From an uncultured Lachnospiraceae bacterium (GTDB lineage: Bacteria > Bacillota > Clostridia > Lachnospirales > Lachnospiraceae), in the NCBI GenBank assembly GCA_947600145.1, contig CANQGA010000006.1, forward strand, positions 1 through 39,666: 39,666 nt of DNA, written 5' to 3'. The position numbers and the translations under genes were made by a program. The first letter of the stretch is position 1. Every line of letters starts with the position of its first letter. The notes under the pieces are model-generated. The model searched no databases, was not told the DNA's origin, and saw only the letters and a list, made by a program, of their open reading frames with translations. Positions 34,118 through 38,427 of the stretch are shown piece after piece.

Positions 34118-37100
34118 ATGCGAATCGAAAGCATGCAGACCAGAACATTCTGGAAAGGCGAGACCGGCGTGGAAGGCGTCGTGGAAGACCTGGGCTTTAA
34201 ATACCGGGTGCGTCTGGAAGTCAAGGGCAGCGAGATCTACAGCTGCTCTTGTTCATGTGGACGCGGATCCGTCTATTCCCGCCCCTGCGTCCATGAGAAG
34301 GCGCTTTTAAAGTATTTTCTGGACCGTGCGGAGGAGAATCCGGCACGCCCTGTCTCCACCTCCCTGCAGGTACGCAGCATGATCCGCGAGTACACGAACC
34401 GGGAGGTGGCCCGCATCGCGGAGCGGCAGAAGGAGACGCCGGTGGAGCTGATCCCGCGGCTTCTGATCCGCCGCCAGGATATTCGCGTGGAATTTCGCGT
34501 GGGCCGCGGCCGCGGGTATGTGGTGAAGGATCTGGTAGAGTTTTCCGCGGCCATGGAGAGGGGCGCCTTCGTGGAGTACGGCAAGGGGCTGGCGTTTTAC
34601 CACAGCCGCGGCGCGTTCGCGGAGGATTCCCGAAAGCTTCTGGACATGGTGCTGGAGCTGTCGGATTCCTACCGGGAGCATTATCTGGAATTTAAGAAAA
34701 ATCTGTATACGCCGGTTCCGCCGATCCGGGAACTGAATCTGAGCCGCGTCCGGCGGGACCGTTTCTTCGAGCTTATGGCGGGCCGCGGGCTGGAGGCGGA
34801 GGACGACCAGGGGCGGAAACGCGACCTTCTGGTCTGCCGCGGTGAGCCGGAGCTTTCCGTATGTGTCCGCAGGGCCGGGGCCCGCGGGATCCGGGTGTCC
34901 CTGGACCGGGATGTCGTTACATTCAGCGGGGAAAAGCATCTCTATGTGATGAAGGGAAACCGGCTGTATATCTGCGGCGAGGATTTCAGCCGGGAAATGG
35001 AAGTGTTTTTCACGCAGATGACGCAGGGGATCCAGGCCCCCTATGAGGTGACGGTCAATGAGAAGGACGTGCCGCTGTTCTATGAGCGGGTCCTGCGCAG
35101 GCTGGAGGAGTTCGGGCTTCTGAAGAGTGAGGGCGTGGAGCTGGAGAGTTACCGCCCGGAGGCGCTGAAGGCCAGTTTCCTGCTGGAAAGCCCGGGGCCG
35201 AACCAGGTCGTGCTGCGTCCGAAACTCAGCTATGGATCCTATTCGTTCCATCCGGTGGAGGACGAGCATGTGCCGTCTGTGATCGTCCGCGACGTGCCCG
35301 GGGAATTCCGCGTCAGCCAGGTGCTTACGAAATATTTCCGGTATCGGGATCCGGAAACCAACGATCTGGTGATCCGCGATGATGAAACGGCGCTGTTCCG
35401 TTTTCTGTCCGAGGGGATCGCGGAGCTCGGACAGCTGGGAGAGGTGCTTCTGGCCGACGGAATGGAGAACCTGAAGGTGCTGCCGCCGAGAAATGTATCC
35501 GTCGGGATCCGGGCGTCCGACGGCTGGCTTACGCTGAATGTGGACGCGGGGGATCTAAGCGGCGCGCAGCTGGGAGAGATCCTGAAGGCGTACCGTGAGA
35601 AAAAGCCATATTACCGGCTGAAAGGCGGGGAGTTTCTGACGCTTTCGGATGACGGCCTTCTGACGGTGGCGCGCATGATGGATTATGCCGCCGCGCAGGA
35701 TGGAAAGGACGGGAAGGATAACGCGCCGGGGATCGTTTTTAGGGTGCCCCAGTACCGCGCTCTCTATCTGGACAGCCTGTACCGGGAGAGGCATGATATC
35801 CGGCTGGAGAGAGATTCTCATTTTAAAGCGATCGTGCGCGGGATGAAATCGGTGGAGGACAGCGATTTTGAGGTGCCTGAGACCTTCGCAGGTGTGCTGC
35901 GGGGCTACCAGAAGATCGGTTTTCGCTGGCTTCGGACGCTGGATTTCTTCGGCTTCGGCGGGATCCTGGCGGACGATATGGGACTGGGAAAGACCGTGCA
36001 GGTCATCAGCGTGATCTACGATGAGGCACGGAAAATAAAATGCGGCGGAGCGGGAAAATGTGATTCGGAGGAGAACGCCGAAGGGGAGGCGGACGCCTCG
36101 GAAAAGCCTGCGGAACCGGCCGTATCCCTGATCGTATGTCCGGCGTCGCTGATCTATAACTGGGAGTGTGAATTTATGAAATTTGCGCCGTCCCTGCGGG
36201 TGCTTCTGATCACCGGCAGCGCGGCGGAGCGTGAGGAAAAGCTTCGAACTGCCGCGGATCACGATGTGGTGATCACGTCCTACGATCTGCTGAAGCGCGA
36301 TCTGTCTCTCTATGAGGGGATCCATTTCCGCTTCCAGGTCATCGACGAGGCCCAGTATATCAAGAATCCGTCCACCCAGAGCGCCAGGGCCGTGAAAGTG
36401 GTCCAGGCGCGGACCCGCTACGCGCTGACCGGAACGCCGGTCGAAAACCGGCTGAGCGAGCTGTGGAGCATCTTCGATTTCCTGATGCCGGGATTTCTCT
36501 ATTCCTATCAGCGTTTTAAGGAGCGGTTCGAATCGCCGATCGTGCGGGAAGGAGACGAGGACGCGGTCGGGATGCTGCGGCGGATGACGGGACCGTTTAT
36601 CCTGCGCAGACTGAAACGCGATGTGCTGACGGAATTGCCGGAGAAGCTGGAGACCGTGGTCTATTCGCAGATGGAGGGGGAGCAGAAGGAGCTGTATGCG
36701 GCCCGGGCTCTGCAGCTTAAGGAGACGCTGGAAGGCTGTGAAAATAAGATCCAGATCCTGGCGGCTTTGACCCGGCTCAGACAGATCTGCTGCGATCCCA
36801 GGCTGATCTATGATAATTACAGCGGCGGCTCGGCCAAGCTGGAGACCTGTATGGAGCTTCTGAATTCCGGCGTGGAGGCCGGATACCGGATCCTTCTGTT
36901 CTCGCAGTTTACGTCAATGCTGGAACTGATCCGCCGGCGGCTTGACGAAGCGGGGATCGCCAGCCTGCTTCTGGTCGGCGAGACCTCGAAGGAAGAGCGG
37001 CAGCAGCGTGTAAGCGCGTTCCAGCGGGGCGAGGCGCCCATCTTCCTGATCTCACTGAAGGCCGGCGGTACCGGACTGAACCTGACAAAGGCGGATATGG

Positions 37101-37339
37101 TGATCCATTATGATCCGTGGTGGAATGTGGCGGCGCAGAACCAGGCTACCGACCGCGCCCACCGCATCGGCCAGGAGAAGACGGTCACGGTGATCCAGCT
37201 GATCACGCGCGGGACCATTGAGGAGAATATCCTGAAGCTCCAGCAGGCGAAGGCGTCGCTGGCCGATCAGGTGGTGACCGACGAAAATGTTTCGCTGGGG
37301 AGCCTGAGCTTCGAGGAGATCGCGGGGCTGCTGGAGTAG
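34118..37339 (+). CDS. SNF2-family helicase with SWIM zinc finger
   Basis: A 1073-residue DNA-dependent ATPase of the bacterial SNF2/Rad54-like group. Residues ~41-65 form a SWIM zinc finger (CSCSCG, then CVHEKALL; ligands among C43/C45/C47, C57 and H59). Residues ~70-560 correspond to the SNF2-associated region. The ATPase core begins with RGYQKIGFRWLRTL. It has Walker A in DDMGLGKT (~619-626), the DEAQ box in VIDEAQYIKNP (~743), TGTPVENRLSELWSIFDF, then the second lobe LLFSQFTSMLELIRRRLDEAG, LISLKAGGTGLNLTKAD and the arginine-finger motif QNQATDRAHRIGQ. A low-complexity Glu/Ala insertion lies after motif I. Such proteins may act in transcription recycling or repair like RapA. No methylase or nuclease neighbour points to a defence system here. 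Confidence 0.95.
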   Translation: MRIESMQTRTFWKGETGVEGVVEDLGFKYRVRLEVKGSEIYSCSCSCGRGSVYSRPCVHEKALLKYFLDRAEENPARPVSTSLQVRSMIREYTNREVARIAERQKETPVELIPRLLIRRQDIRVEFRVGRGRGYVVKDLVEFSAAMERGAFVEYGKGLAFYHSRGAFAEDSRKLLDMVLELSDSYREHYLEFKKNLYTPVPPIRELNLSRVRRDRFFELMAGRGLEAEDDQGRKRDLLVCRGEPELSVCVRRAGARGIRVSLDRDVVTFSGEKHLYVMKGNRLYICGEDFSREMEVFFTQMTQGIQAPYEVTVNEKDVPLFYERVLRRLEEFGLLKSEGVELESYRPEALKASFLLESPGPNQVVLRPKLSYGSYSFHPVEDEHVPSVIVRDVPGEFRVSQVLTKYFRYRDPETNDLVIRDDETALFRFLSEGIAELGQLGEVLLADGMENLKVLPPRNVSVGIRASDGWLTLNVDAGDLSGAQLGEILKAYREKKPYYRLKGGEFLTLSDDGLLTVARMMDYAAAQDGKDGKDNAPGIVFRVPQYRALYLDSLYRERHDIRLERDSHFKAIVRGMKSVEDSDFEVPETFAGVLRGYQKIGFRWLRTLDFFGFGGILADDMGLGKTVQVISVIYDEARKIKCGGAGKCDSEENAEGEADASEKPAEPAVSLIVCPASLIYNWECEFMKFAPSLRVLLITGSAAEREEKLRTAADHDVVITSYDLLKRDLSLYEGIHFRFQVIDEAQYIKNPSTQSARAVKVVQARTRYALTGTPVENRLSELWSIFDFLMPGFLYSYQRFKERFESPIVREGDEDAVGMLRRMTGPFILRRLKRDVLTELPEKLETVVYSQMEGEQKELYAARALQLKETLEGCENKIQILAALTRLRQICCDPRLIYDNYSGGSAKLETCMELLNSGVEAGYRILLFSQFTSMLELIRRRLDEAGIASLLLVGETSKEERQQRVSAFQRGEAPIFLISLKAGGTGLNLTKADMVIHYDPWWNVAAQNQATDRAHRIGQEKTVTVIQLITRGTIEENILKLQQAKASLADQVVTDENVSLGSLSFEEIAGLLE

Positions 37340-37346
37340 GGGAGAT

Positions 37347-37616
37347 GCGATGCGTGAAGTACGCGGGCGGAAGAGGTTCCTTCCGCGCTCATGGTTCCGG
37401 AGGGAAGAGGATCTAAGACAAAAACGACCGGTGCGGGGGCACTGTCAAATTCGCGGGAATTTCTGAAGAAATTCCCGCTCAGGTTGACACTGCGGCCATG
37501 ACTTGTGGTCATGGCCGCAGACCCCCGCACCGGTCATTTTATGTCTAAGATCCTCTAACCCTCCTGCACAAATCGCGCGGAAGGAACCTCTTCCGCCCGC
37601 TGTGCTTCGCATGCGC
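37347..37616. repeat. Giant imperfect palindrome A (about 270 nt)
   Basis: Outer arms 37363-37388 and 37575-37600 are perfectly complementary over 26 bp, and pairing continues outward with small bulges to about 37347/37616. Inner arms pair in blocks around 37401-37420 with 37541-37560, and perfectly over 14 bp at 37426-37439 with 37522-37535. The apex carries two separate hairpins: 37453-37463 with 37468-37478 (11 bp, loop TGAA) and 37490-37502 with 37508-37520 (13 bp, loop TTGTG). GGGGAG occurs on both flanks (37339-37344 and 37617-37622). Starts eight bases after the SNF2 stop; no credible gene lies inside. Confidence 0.88.
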
Positions 37617-37646
37617 GGGGAGGCAGGAGGAGTTATACATAGGCTT

Positions 37647-37870
37647 CGGAACACCCAGCACAGGACCCGCACTTCTTCTGCGGTGAATTTTGGGAGCGGT
37701 GAAACATCTTAGTGAACAGCGATTTGCGTTATCACGAAAAATGAACTTGTTCGAGCGAAGCGAGTTGTTCATTTTTCGTGATGCCATTAGCAGGTCGCTG
37801 TGAACTTAGATGTTTCCCGCGAACAGATCCTGAACCGCAGAAGAAGTGCGGGTCCTGTGCGTTTCTTCCG
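37647..37870. repeat. Giant imperfect palindrome B (about 224 nt)
   Basis: Outer arms 37658-37684 and 37834-37860 pair perfectly over 27 bp; CGGAA (37647-37651) and TTCCG (37866-37870) extend the base. Middle blocks pair at 37701-37722 with 37795-37815, with a few mismatches. The apex stem 37731-37746 with 37767-37782 is a perfect 16 bp capping a 20-nt loop containing GAGCGAAGCGAG. It lies 30 bp after palindrome A; the arms do not share sequence with A. The remaining gap, 37871-38034, holds the promoter and leader of the next gene. Confidence 0.88.
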
Positions 37871-37929
37871 CGATCCCCTTCCCGCTATACACTTTCAGCA
37901 AAAAATCCCCCTTCGCCGTGCGAAATCAT

Positions 37930-38034: not shown

Positions 38035-38427
38035 ATGAACGAAGTCTACGAATTCCTGAAGAAATGCGGAGTTTACTATCTGGCGACCGCCGAGGGCGAT
38101 CAGCCCCGCGTCCGGCCGTTCGGGACGGTCGATCTCTTTGAGGGACGGCTTTATATCCAGACCGGGAAAGTGAAACCGGTGGCCTGTCAGATGAAGGCCA
38201 ATCCGAAGGTGGAGATTTCCGGCATGGCCGACGGCAAATGGATCCGCGTGGCGGCAGAAGCTGTCCTGGATGAGCGGATCGAGGCCCAGAAGCATATGCT
38301 GGACGCCTATCCGTCCCTGCAGGCCATGTACCAGCCCGGCGACGGCAACACGGAGGTTTATTATCTGAAGAACGTGACGGCGCAGATCTGCTCGTTCACG
38401 GAACCGGTGAAGGAGTATCGTTTCTGA
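38035..38427 (+). CDS. Pyridoxamine 5'-phosphate oxidase-like flavoprotein
   Basis: A 130-residue split-barrel protein of the PNPOx-like FMN-binding superfamily. The N-terminus MNEVYEFLKKCGVYYLATAEGDQPRVRPFGTVDLFEGRLYIQTGK is characteristic, with the RPFG segment and the following strand forming the flavin site. VACQMKANPKVEISGMADGKWIRVAAEAV continues the barrel. Small members of this type are common in gut Clostridia and mostly uncharacterised; true pyridoxamine oxidase (PdxH) is longer and has extra substrate residues. GAGGAGG at 38021-38027 marks the start. The gene stands alone, after the palindromes and before xylB. Confidence 0.88.
   Translation: MNEVYEFLKKCGVYYLATAEGDQPRVRPFGTVDLFEGRLYIQTGKVKPVACQMKANPKVEISGMADGKWIRVAAEAVLDERIEAQKHMLDAYPSLQAMYQPGDGNTEVYYLKNVTAQICSFTEPVKEYRF

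Follow-up and report, generated by a model that had tools for sequence, protein, structure and literature searches.

Paired Y-Headed Hairpins Downstream of a SNF2 Gene: A Putative Two-Hairpin Interspersed DNA Element of Lachnospiraceae

A branched palindrome of about 270 nt lies directly downstream of a SNF2 helicase gene in an uncultured Lachnospiraceae bacterium. The question raised by this locus is what kind of sequence it represents. The initial annotation considered a transposase-less, MITE-like mobile unit or, alternatively, a structured RNA. The window analyzed here is the whole stretch of 39,666 nucleotides of contig CANQGA010000006.1. The best reading is a non-autonomous mobile DNA element that resembles REPINs and is far larger than REPs. 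With a probability of about one half, the palindrome forms the left hairpin in a non-autonomous element of two hairpins, which is interspersed in Lachnospiraceae genomes and moved or converted in trans.

Layout of the element and its family in the genus

The palindrome at 37347–37616 is real, based on the repeat search and on folds far outside those of shuffles. Its 26-bp perfect outer arms and inner paired blocks were found again, and its apex consists of two hairpins of 12 bp and 13 bp by the repeat search, where 11 bp and 13 bp had been reported (Table 1). The palindrome is the left half of an element of approximately 545 bp, at about 37340–37885. A second, related palindrome, which the initial annotation missed, belongs to the same element and starts 57 bp beyond the left outer stem. 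This two-hairpin element is bordered on the left by the SNF2 stop codon and on the right by the 5′ region of a gene resembling those for pyridoxamine-phosphate oxidase. The core of the left hairpin contains an internal loop CTCATGG/CAAATCGC, the block TCTAAG/CTAAGA, and a Y-shaped head. By eye, the right hairpin (type B) is an inverted relative of type A, with which it shares the block GGGAAxAGnnTCTAAG.

Table 1. Coordinates of the element in the window, its neighboring genes, and Rpn-like genes beside related hairpins.
Feature	Position	Strand	Remarks
Upstream gene, SNF2 helicase family	34118–37339	+	PF08455, PF00176, PF00271; stop codon 37337–37339
GGGGAG, two copies	37339–37344; 37617–37622		second copy between the hairpins, inside the element
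Left outer foot tag	37351–37365	+	TGCGTGAAGTACGCG, degenerate form of TCGCGRRAGRTACGCG; outer-end consensus; 11 bp 3′ of the SNF2 stop codon
Left hairpin, outer stem arm	37363–37388	+	26 bp perfect, pairs with 37575–37600
Left hairpin, longer form of outer arms	37363–37404/37559–37600		42 nt, 86% complementary (repeat search)
Left hairpin, inner paired blocks	37406–37424/37538–37556; 37421–37439/37522–37540		repeat search
Conserved core, left (A1-type) hairpin	37385–37578	+	A1 alignment, covariation, model score 210 bits
Apical hairpin 1	37453–37478	+	arms 37453–37464/37467–37478, 12 bp; conserved ATTC and TCAG flanks
Apical hairpin 2	37490–37520	+	arms 37490–37502/37508–37520, 13 bp
Outer stem arm, 3′ side	37575–37600	+	repeat search and sequence
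Inner foot GCTGTGCTTCGC	37599–37610	+	foot comparison by eye
Spacer between both hairpins	37611–37657		contains the second GGGGAG
Right (B-type) hairpin	37658–37860	+	repeat search, DNA fold, comparison with A
Right hairpin, outer arms	37658–37684/37834–37860		27 bp perfect
Right hairpin, middle arms	37701–37727/37790–37816		
Right hairpin, apex	37731–37746/37767–37782		
Right outer foot tag	37858–37873	−	degenerate, TCGCGGAAGAAACGCA on the − strand
Downstream gene, pyridoxamine 5′-phosphate oxidase-like	38035–38427	+	PF01243
Rpn-like nuclease or putative transposase genes	L116:1048–2079 (G021:C11); L220:4671–5714; L256:160–1170; L277:450–1322; L338:755–1180; L340:870–1184; L345:863–1438		

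The GGGGAG on both sides of the palindrome had been suggested as a target-site duplication. This suggestion is to be abandoned: the composite element itself contains the second copy, and among 39 pairs of elements in the genus, the self-complementary tag is the sole source of a duplication signal. The list for copy identity contains 37 pairs (L118, L124, and L232 dropped, a start in L054 corrected, the window added), and spacers and stop codons in the genus were counted in 36 pairs, with L177 dropped additionally.

Relatives were found by DNA search in 10 of 99 genomes including its own, all belonging to one genus; the match in G007 is of 35 bases only. At least seven A-type loci are present in its own genome. 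Among the 26 genomes of the genus, 9–10 are carriers, and the DNA search and the tag pattern found no copy in 16–17. Three hairpin types can be distinguished, A1 (the left hairpin of the window), A2, and B, and they are combined as A1+A2, A1+B, and A2+B. All hairpins are built alike, with a polar tag at the outer foot, a stem that pairs almost perfectly and varies in sequence from copy to copy, and the conserved Y-shaped head. The consensus of the outer-end tag is TCGCGRRAGRTACGCG, extending outward to about TGYGCACATRG. An exact pattern for a part of the tag is seen at 41 sites in 9 of the 26 genomes, and its reversed control at none in all 26. The tag sites read in sequence are hairpin arms or their remnants, with the genes around them named only in part.

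All 16 A-A loci of the genus are convergent with their tags outward. Same-direction exceptions are a pair of A1 hairpins in G021 (L116), separated by 1.3 kb, and two hairpins in G276 (L301). Elements of the genus have terminal inverted repeats (TIRs) of 24–25 bp. In named genome records, a core-derived pattern has 57 matches. Of these, 56 belong to uncultured Lachnospiraceae, isolates named Lapin (rabbit, by name), and the remaining one belongs to Bythopirellula.

In some hairpins, the outer foot is repeated in tandem every 11–13 bp or so (ACGCGAAAGAT and similar), as slippage at the base of the hairpin might produce (L049 at about 862–907, L179, L050 at about 781–936, and L120:3690–3765). Of 25 spacers measuring 100 bp or more, 7 also contain tandem repeats (L059, L061, L062, L068, L080, L098, and L192), compared with 2 of 50 matched flanks. 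Several copies are located at contig ends (L046, L051, G012:C19:1–209, and G021:C122:1–160). The palindromes may thus break short-read assemblies, and copy numbers from MAGs may be underestimates.

Distribution in Lachnospiraceae and position relative to genes

A covariance model of the core (R1, 195 model positions) matched 17 of 299 Lachnospiraceae genomes. Fourteen of them score at least 46 bits and represent 13 genera, the own genus and 12 others. The other three (G105, G195, and G216) score below 36 bits and are treated as noise, since the only further match in a sample of 398 genomes of the phylum reaches 31 bits. In 392 genomes of the order, no match was found beyond Lachnospiraceae. 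Because filters are stricter in such large samples, some weak copies may have escaped detection. A deeper search of eight carriers yielded 6 to 26 matches each, a few of which are weak or the opposite strand of the same palindrome. The other strand of the window palindrome itself scores 52 bits; therefore, matches near 50 bits are the least certain.

The strict head motif ATTC..CTGRWG..TCAG is present in 33 of 75 matches from other genera, against a rate of 0.0003 in shuffled ones. At the scanned loci of other genera, 13 pairs have their hairpins no more than 1 kb apart, and 12 of these are convergent. Judged by eye, the left foot (TTACGC) and the right foot (GCTGG) of G315 and G109 are similar to TACGCG and CGCTGTG in the own genus. 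Searches of phages and plasmids gave no match to the element, and the genus pattern had none in viral contigs. A looser pattern gave three matches in viral contigs, without support from the model, and a phage or plasmid origin was rejected.

The hairpins commonly follow a stop codon closely. For 63 copies from five other genomes, 61 5′ sides were called; a gene ends at the hairpin in 43 of them, and 41 of these 43 stop codons are within 45 bp. On the 3′ side of the same copies, 7 of 23 gene ends are that near. In the genus, the ends adjoining a stop codon are 22 of 31 for A2, 8 of 23 for A1, and 6 of 17 for B among those called; the gene calls in both counts are the longest ORFs and noisy, and some sides scored as pointing away are probably wrong.

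Conservation of the fold and of the stem arms

The sequence at 37330–37630 folds as RNA with −200 kcal/mol on each strand (z = −15 and −21), and none of 100 shuffles was as good. With DNA parameters, the left hairpin reaches −122.6 kcal/mol (z = −20; none of 200 shuffles as good), and z for the right hairpin is −13.6. In 50 A cores, 58 pairs are predicted and 98.4% of the cells are paired. Two-sided changes are seen at 26 of the 58 pairs. None of 500 shuffles was as good on four of five measures, including the covariation score; the fifth, further pair types, is unexceptional, with 270 of 500 shuffles as good.

As to the initial annotation's idea of a structured RNA, compensatory change is strong, but neither a strand preference of G-U over A-C nor an Rfam family at gathering score in the window was found. 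In the outer arms of 113 copies in six groups, there are 167 G-T against 154 A-C mismatches on the core strand, and in the copies of the genus only, 25 against 37. The exception is G148, with 56 G-T against 12 A-C. In the core, 12 G-T and 8 A-C mismatches remain when one loop-closing pair, T-G in 45 of 50 copies, is left out. Covariation is present, and the wobble tolerance of one strand typical of RNA is not seen overall, apart from G148. Within a pair, the right hairpin is on the strand opposite to the left hairpin. The Rfam search of the window gave nothing at gathering score; sub-threshold matches are weak, and those at the hairpins are to models of long-hairpin microRNAs.

An RNA under selection should prefer G-U. 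The pairing is kept without such a preference, which favors DNA over RNA as the conserved molecule, or else the arms are corrected against each other. Unpaired blocks are also conserved: CTCATGG opposite CAAATCGC, the A-A mismatch in TCTAAG/CTAAGA, and ATTC and TCAG around apical hairpin 1. Pure correction between arms would erase such blocks.

The relationship between the arms can be seen in G315. In its 22 copies, the arms within a copy agree at 2043 of 2138 aligned positions. Stem arms are up to 176 bases long. Between copies, 210 pairs of arms measuring 40 bases or more were compared, and 25 gave an alignment with an E-value no higher than 0.001, with 71–95% identity and mostly over short stretches. 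The within-copy value is favored by the choice of the best local alignment, but the contrast is still large. Agreement inside each copy together with divergence from other copies indicates that the arms co-evolve or are renewed as pairs.

Movement, rival explanations, and a candidate enzyme

Two copies in G021 are 99.3% identical over 682 bp in unrelated flanks. Their outer tags differ, and conversion of older copies is thus a possible origin. Two copies in G014 are 95.6% identical over 633 bp with the ends GCACAT...ATGTGC, also in unrelated flanks. The palindrome is not bound to the SNF2 gene: many extra copies are found elsewhere, and in G008 the matching SNF2 gene end has no hairpin in the 4 kb around it (L122). 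Another element site, with conserved flanks, is common to six species, and much of the present distribution may therefore be vertical. In G018, the flanks of this six-species site are on different contigs (G018:C1:46218 and G018:C100:2135; L366 and L121); both breaks are inside an A2 hairpin and away from contig ends, which could represent a rearrangement through the hairpin or a misassembly.

The GidB-ParA locus differs among species of the genus. G012 has no hairpin, and its intergenic sequence has diverged too far for the empty-site junction to be placed to the exact base. G018 has one decayed hairpin of 51 bits, and G011 has a decayed short hairpin and an inverted A1. G000 and G021 have an A2-B pair. 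G008 has a hairpin and an acetyltransferase, G014 has two hairpins enclosing an EamA-like and a tRNA-binding protein, and G003 has a hairpin and an EamA-like protein up to the contig end. In the cargo region of G014 (L118:6561–6677, G014:C8), there is also a separate dispersed repeat of approximately 115 bp, about 82–85% identical at many sites in the genus. The GidB-ParA intergenic region contains sites that we take to be parS-like (L368:896–911, and L371:1387–1402 and 1556–1571); degenerate ones in G021 are inside the spacer between both hairpins.

With dispersed near-identical copies, TIRs, and site differences between species, the proposal of a transposase-less mobile unit has largely stood, and mobility is well supported. 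The structure, the family, its polarity, and pairing at the level of DNA can be regarded as shown. Gene conversion between old copies is a possible alternative source of the near-identity.

The strongest rival is a bidirectional terminator or insulator, that is, an old, vertically inherited 3′-end element which is maintained by the host, homogenized by gene conversion, and not transposing. It accounts for stop codons at 0–45 bp from the 5′ side, for the preferred orientation relative to the upstream gene, for the site common to six species, and for the A-tract before and the T-tract after a GC-rich stem in many copies. T-tracts are missing in other copies (L056, L088, and L119), however, and a terminator requires neither a palindrome of 200–550 nt nor outward tags nor convergent pairs; the genomes of the genus in which no copy was found also speak against it. 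A terminator scan gave 3 sites compared with a mean of 1.2 in shuffles, considering loops of 3–8 only, which are too small to capture the head. On balance, this explanation is unlikely. In favor of an RNA or a 3′-UTR element are the strong covariation of the Y-shaped fold, the orientation matching the upstream gene, and the G-T excess in G148. The mismatch counts in the genus, in all groups, and in the core, the opposite strand of the right hairpin, and the lack of an Rfam match at gathering score in the window argue the other way, and we regard an RNA as very improbable.

An ordinary MITE of a DDE transposase, with TIRs, a target duplication, and an incidentally palindromic interior, is quite improbable, if less so than an RNA. 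The TIRs of the genus fit it, as do three copies in G109 with another TIR, CAGGATAAAC..., each flanked by 9-bp repeats that agree at 8 of 9 positions. Other copies in the comparison end differently from this TIR, as would be seen after capture of a hairpin by a MITE. A search of the G109 genome with the TIR pattern gave the three hairpin copies and two remnants, without a transposon. The remnants (L282:5400–5460 and L283:4460–4580) lack the conserved head. The 39 pairs of the genus show no duplication, and the strong conservation of the head is unexpected for the interior of a MITE.

For the REPIN-like mobile element, the following course is inferred. An enzyme acting in trans would recognize the extruded DNA hairpin by the foot tag and the Y head, and would move or convert the element. 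During movement or replication, one arm might be recopied from the other by template switching or fold-back copying, and the stems would stay near perfect for this reason. The placement after stop codons could mean that terminator regions are targeted, or that insertions are tolerated there. Transcription termination in both directions may be a side effect.

Y1 transposase genes (PF01797) are absent in six of nine carriers of the genus (G000, G003, G008, G012, G018, and G021) and in two of nine carriers of other genera (G210 and G191), and none was found in the genome of the window. A broken Y1 fragment in G001 is about 3 kb from a B hairpin. Around RAYT-like genes in other carriers (8 places), no model match was found within about 2 kb; at three of these places, some other strongly folded stretch is nearby. 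Y1 genes do not track the elements, and Y1/RAYT as the mobilizer is rejected for the genus. By eye, the RAYT-like Y1 genes (L376, L377, and L379; L378 and L380) are seemingly in the same two chromosomal contexts across Lachnospiraceae genera.

Rpn-like genes adjoin hairpins at seven places in four genera: two in G021, two in G060, one in G217, and the remainder in G109, where a second gene of a related type (L277) is included. In G021 (L116), one such gene is between the two same-direction A1 hairpins. Members of this cluster match one another and several match the Rpn family below its cut-off, which only one neighbor, L277, passes. A second recurrent cluster of neighbors consists of AraC-type regulators, and other clusters are mostly unnamed. 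The Rpn family of recombination-promoting nucleases is a candidate for the enzyme. RpnA of Escherichia coli is described as a nuclease without sequence specificity, whose cuts leave priming sites, with joining by primer-template switching being possible (PMC5350276). Such priming would fit recopied arms. The placement of the neighbors may be chance, and this lead leaves the odds of the readings unchanged.

A bolder version can be formulated: a new class of mobile DNA, in which Y-headed hairpins are recognized and copied as folded DNA, renew their own stems at each move through fold-back or template-switch synthesis, land in one orientation after stop codons, and form convergent, gene-carrying pairs, with an enzyme still to be named, possibly an Rpn-family nuclease. 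We consider this version doubtful, somewhat more so than the terminator or insulator.

Relation to known systems and significance

Among the REP, REPIN, MITE, and Rpn papers found by text search, no title describes such elements in Lachnospiraceae. The closest resemblance is to REP/REPIN/BIME with TnpA-REP (RAYT), which likewise are palindromes dispersed between genes, tagged at one foot and having a stem interrupted by a bulge or mismatch. They are often inverted pairs with a short linker, as found here, and mostly 3′ of coding regions. REPs are given as 20–50 nt with a GTAG or CGTC tag (PMC3733652, PMC8266576). The present hairpins measure 200–550 nt, their tag is GCGGRAGRTACGC-like, and they have a Y head; they thus differ in size and tag. 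They also differ in the 6–26 matches per deeply searched genome, in the window's genome having no Y1 gene, and in showing no G-T excess. Prokaryotic MITEs are similarly short, mostly non-coding, and multi-copy, and share terminal inverted repeats with the present elements. The latter are distinct in their conserved Y head; no target duplication was seen in the 39 pairs of the genus, and a parent transposon is not known.

The ends of IS200/IS605 and the attC sites of integrons are folded-DNA recombination sites; attC has the core site GTTRRRY and is used with an integrase. Similar to these, a folded strand with unpaired bases is the likely recognition unit here, and variable genes are beside or between hairpins at one locus. 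In contrast, the present elements have no linked tyrosine recombinase or Y1 gene, and their stems are far longer and in inverted arrangement. Foldback elements and parvovirus ends have long self-complementary or Y/T-shaped terminal hairpins. The likeness, long self-complementary ends and a Y apex over a long stem, is in shape only, and no replication protein was found here. Rpn/YhgA-like (Transposase_31) nucleases share the position beside hairpins and a priming activity that would fit recopied arms; RpnA lacks sequence specificity, however, and most neighbors here are below the family cut-offs. A role of unpaired bases in folded-DNA sites is treated in one of the REP papers (PMC8266576).

These elements bear on how palindromes persist and how gene content varies in the family. 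In bacteria, instability is expected of long near-perfect palindromes. Removal of such palindromic structures is mentioned in one report (PMC3733652). Here, at least 13 genera of a single family nevertheless retain long palindromes, with several to dozens in each genome and with arms that agree inside a copy but vary from copy to copy. The copying, repair, and spread of natural palindromes thereby become directly testable in culturable relatives, and this may expose a hairpin-processing enzyme not known so far. In some species, genes are located beside or between the hairpins, and the elements may thus shape gene content at fixed sites, one of which adjoins a ParA-type partition gene.
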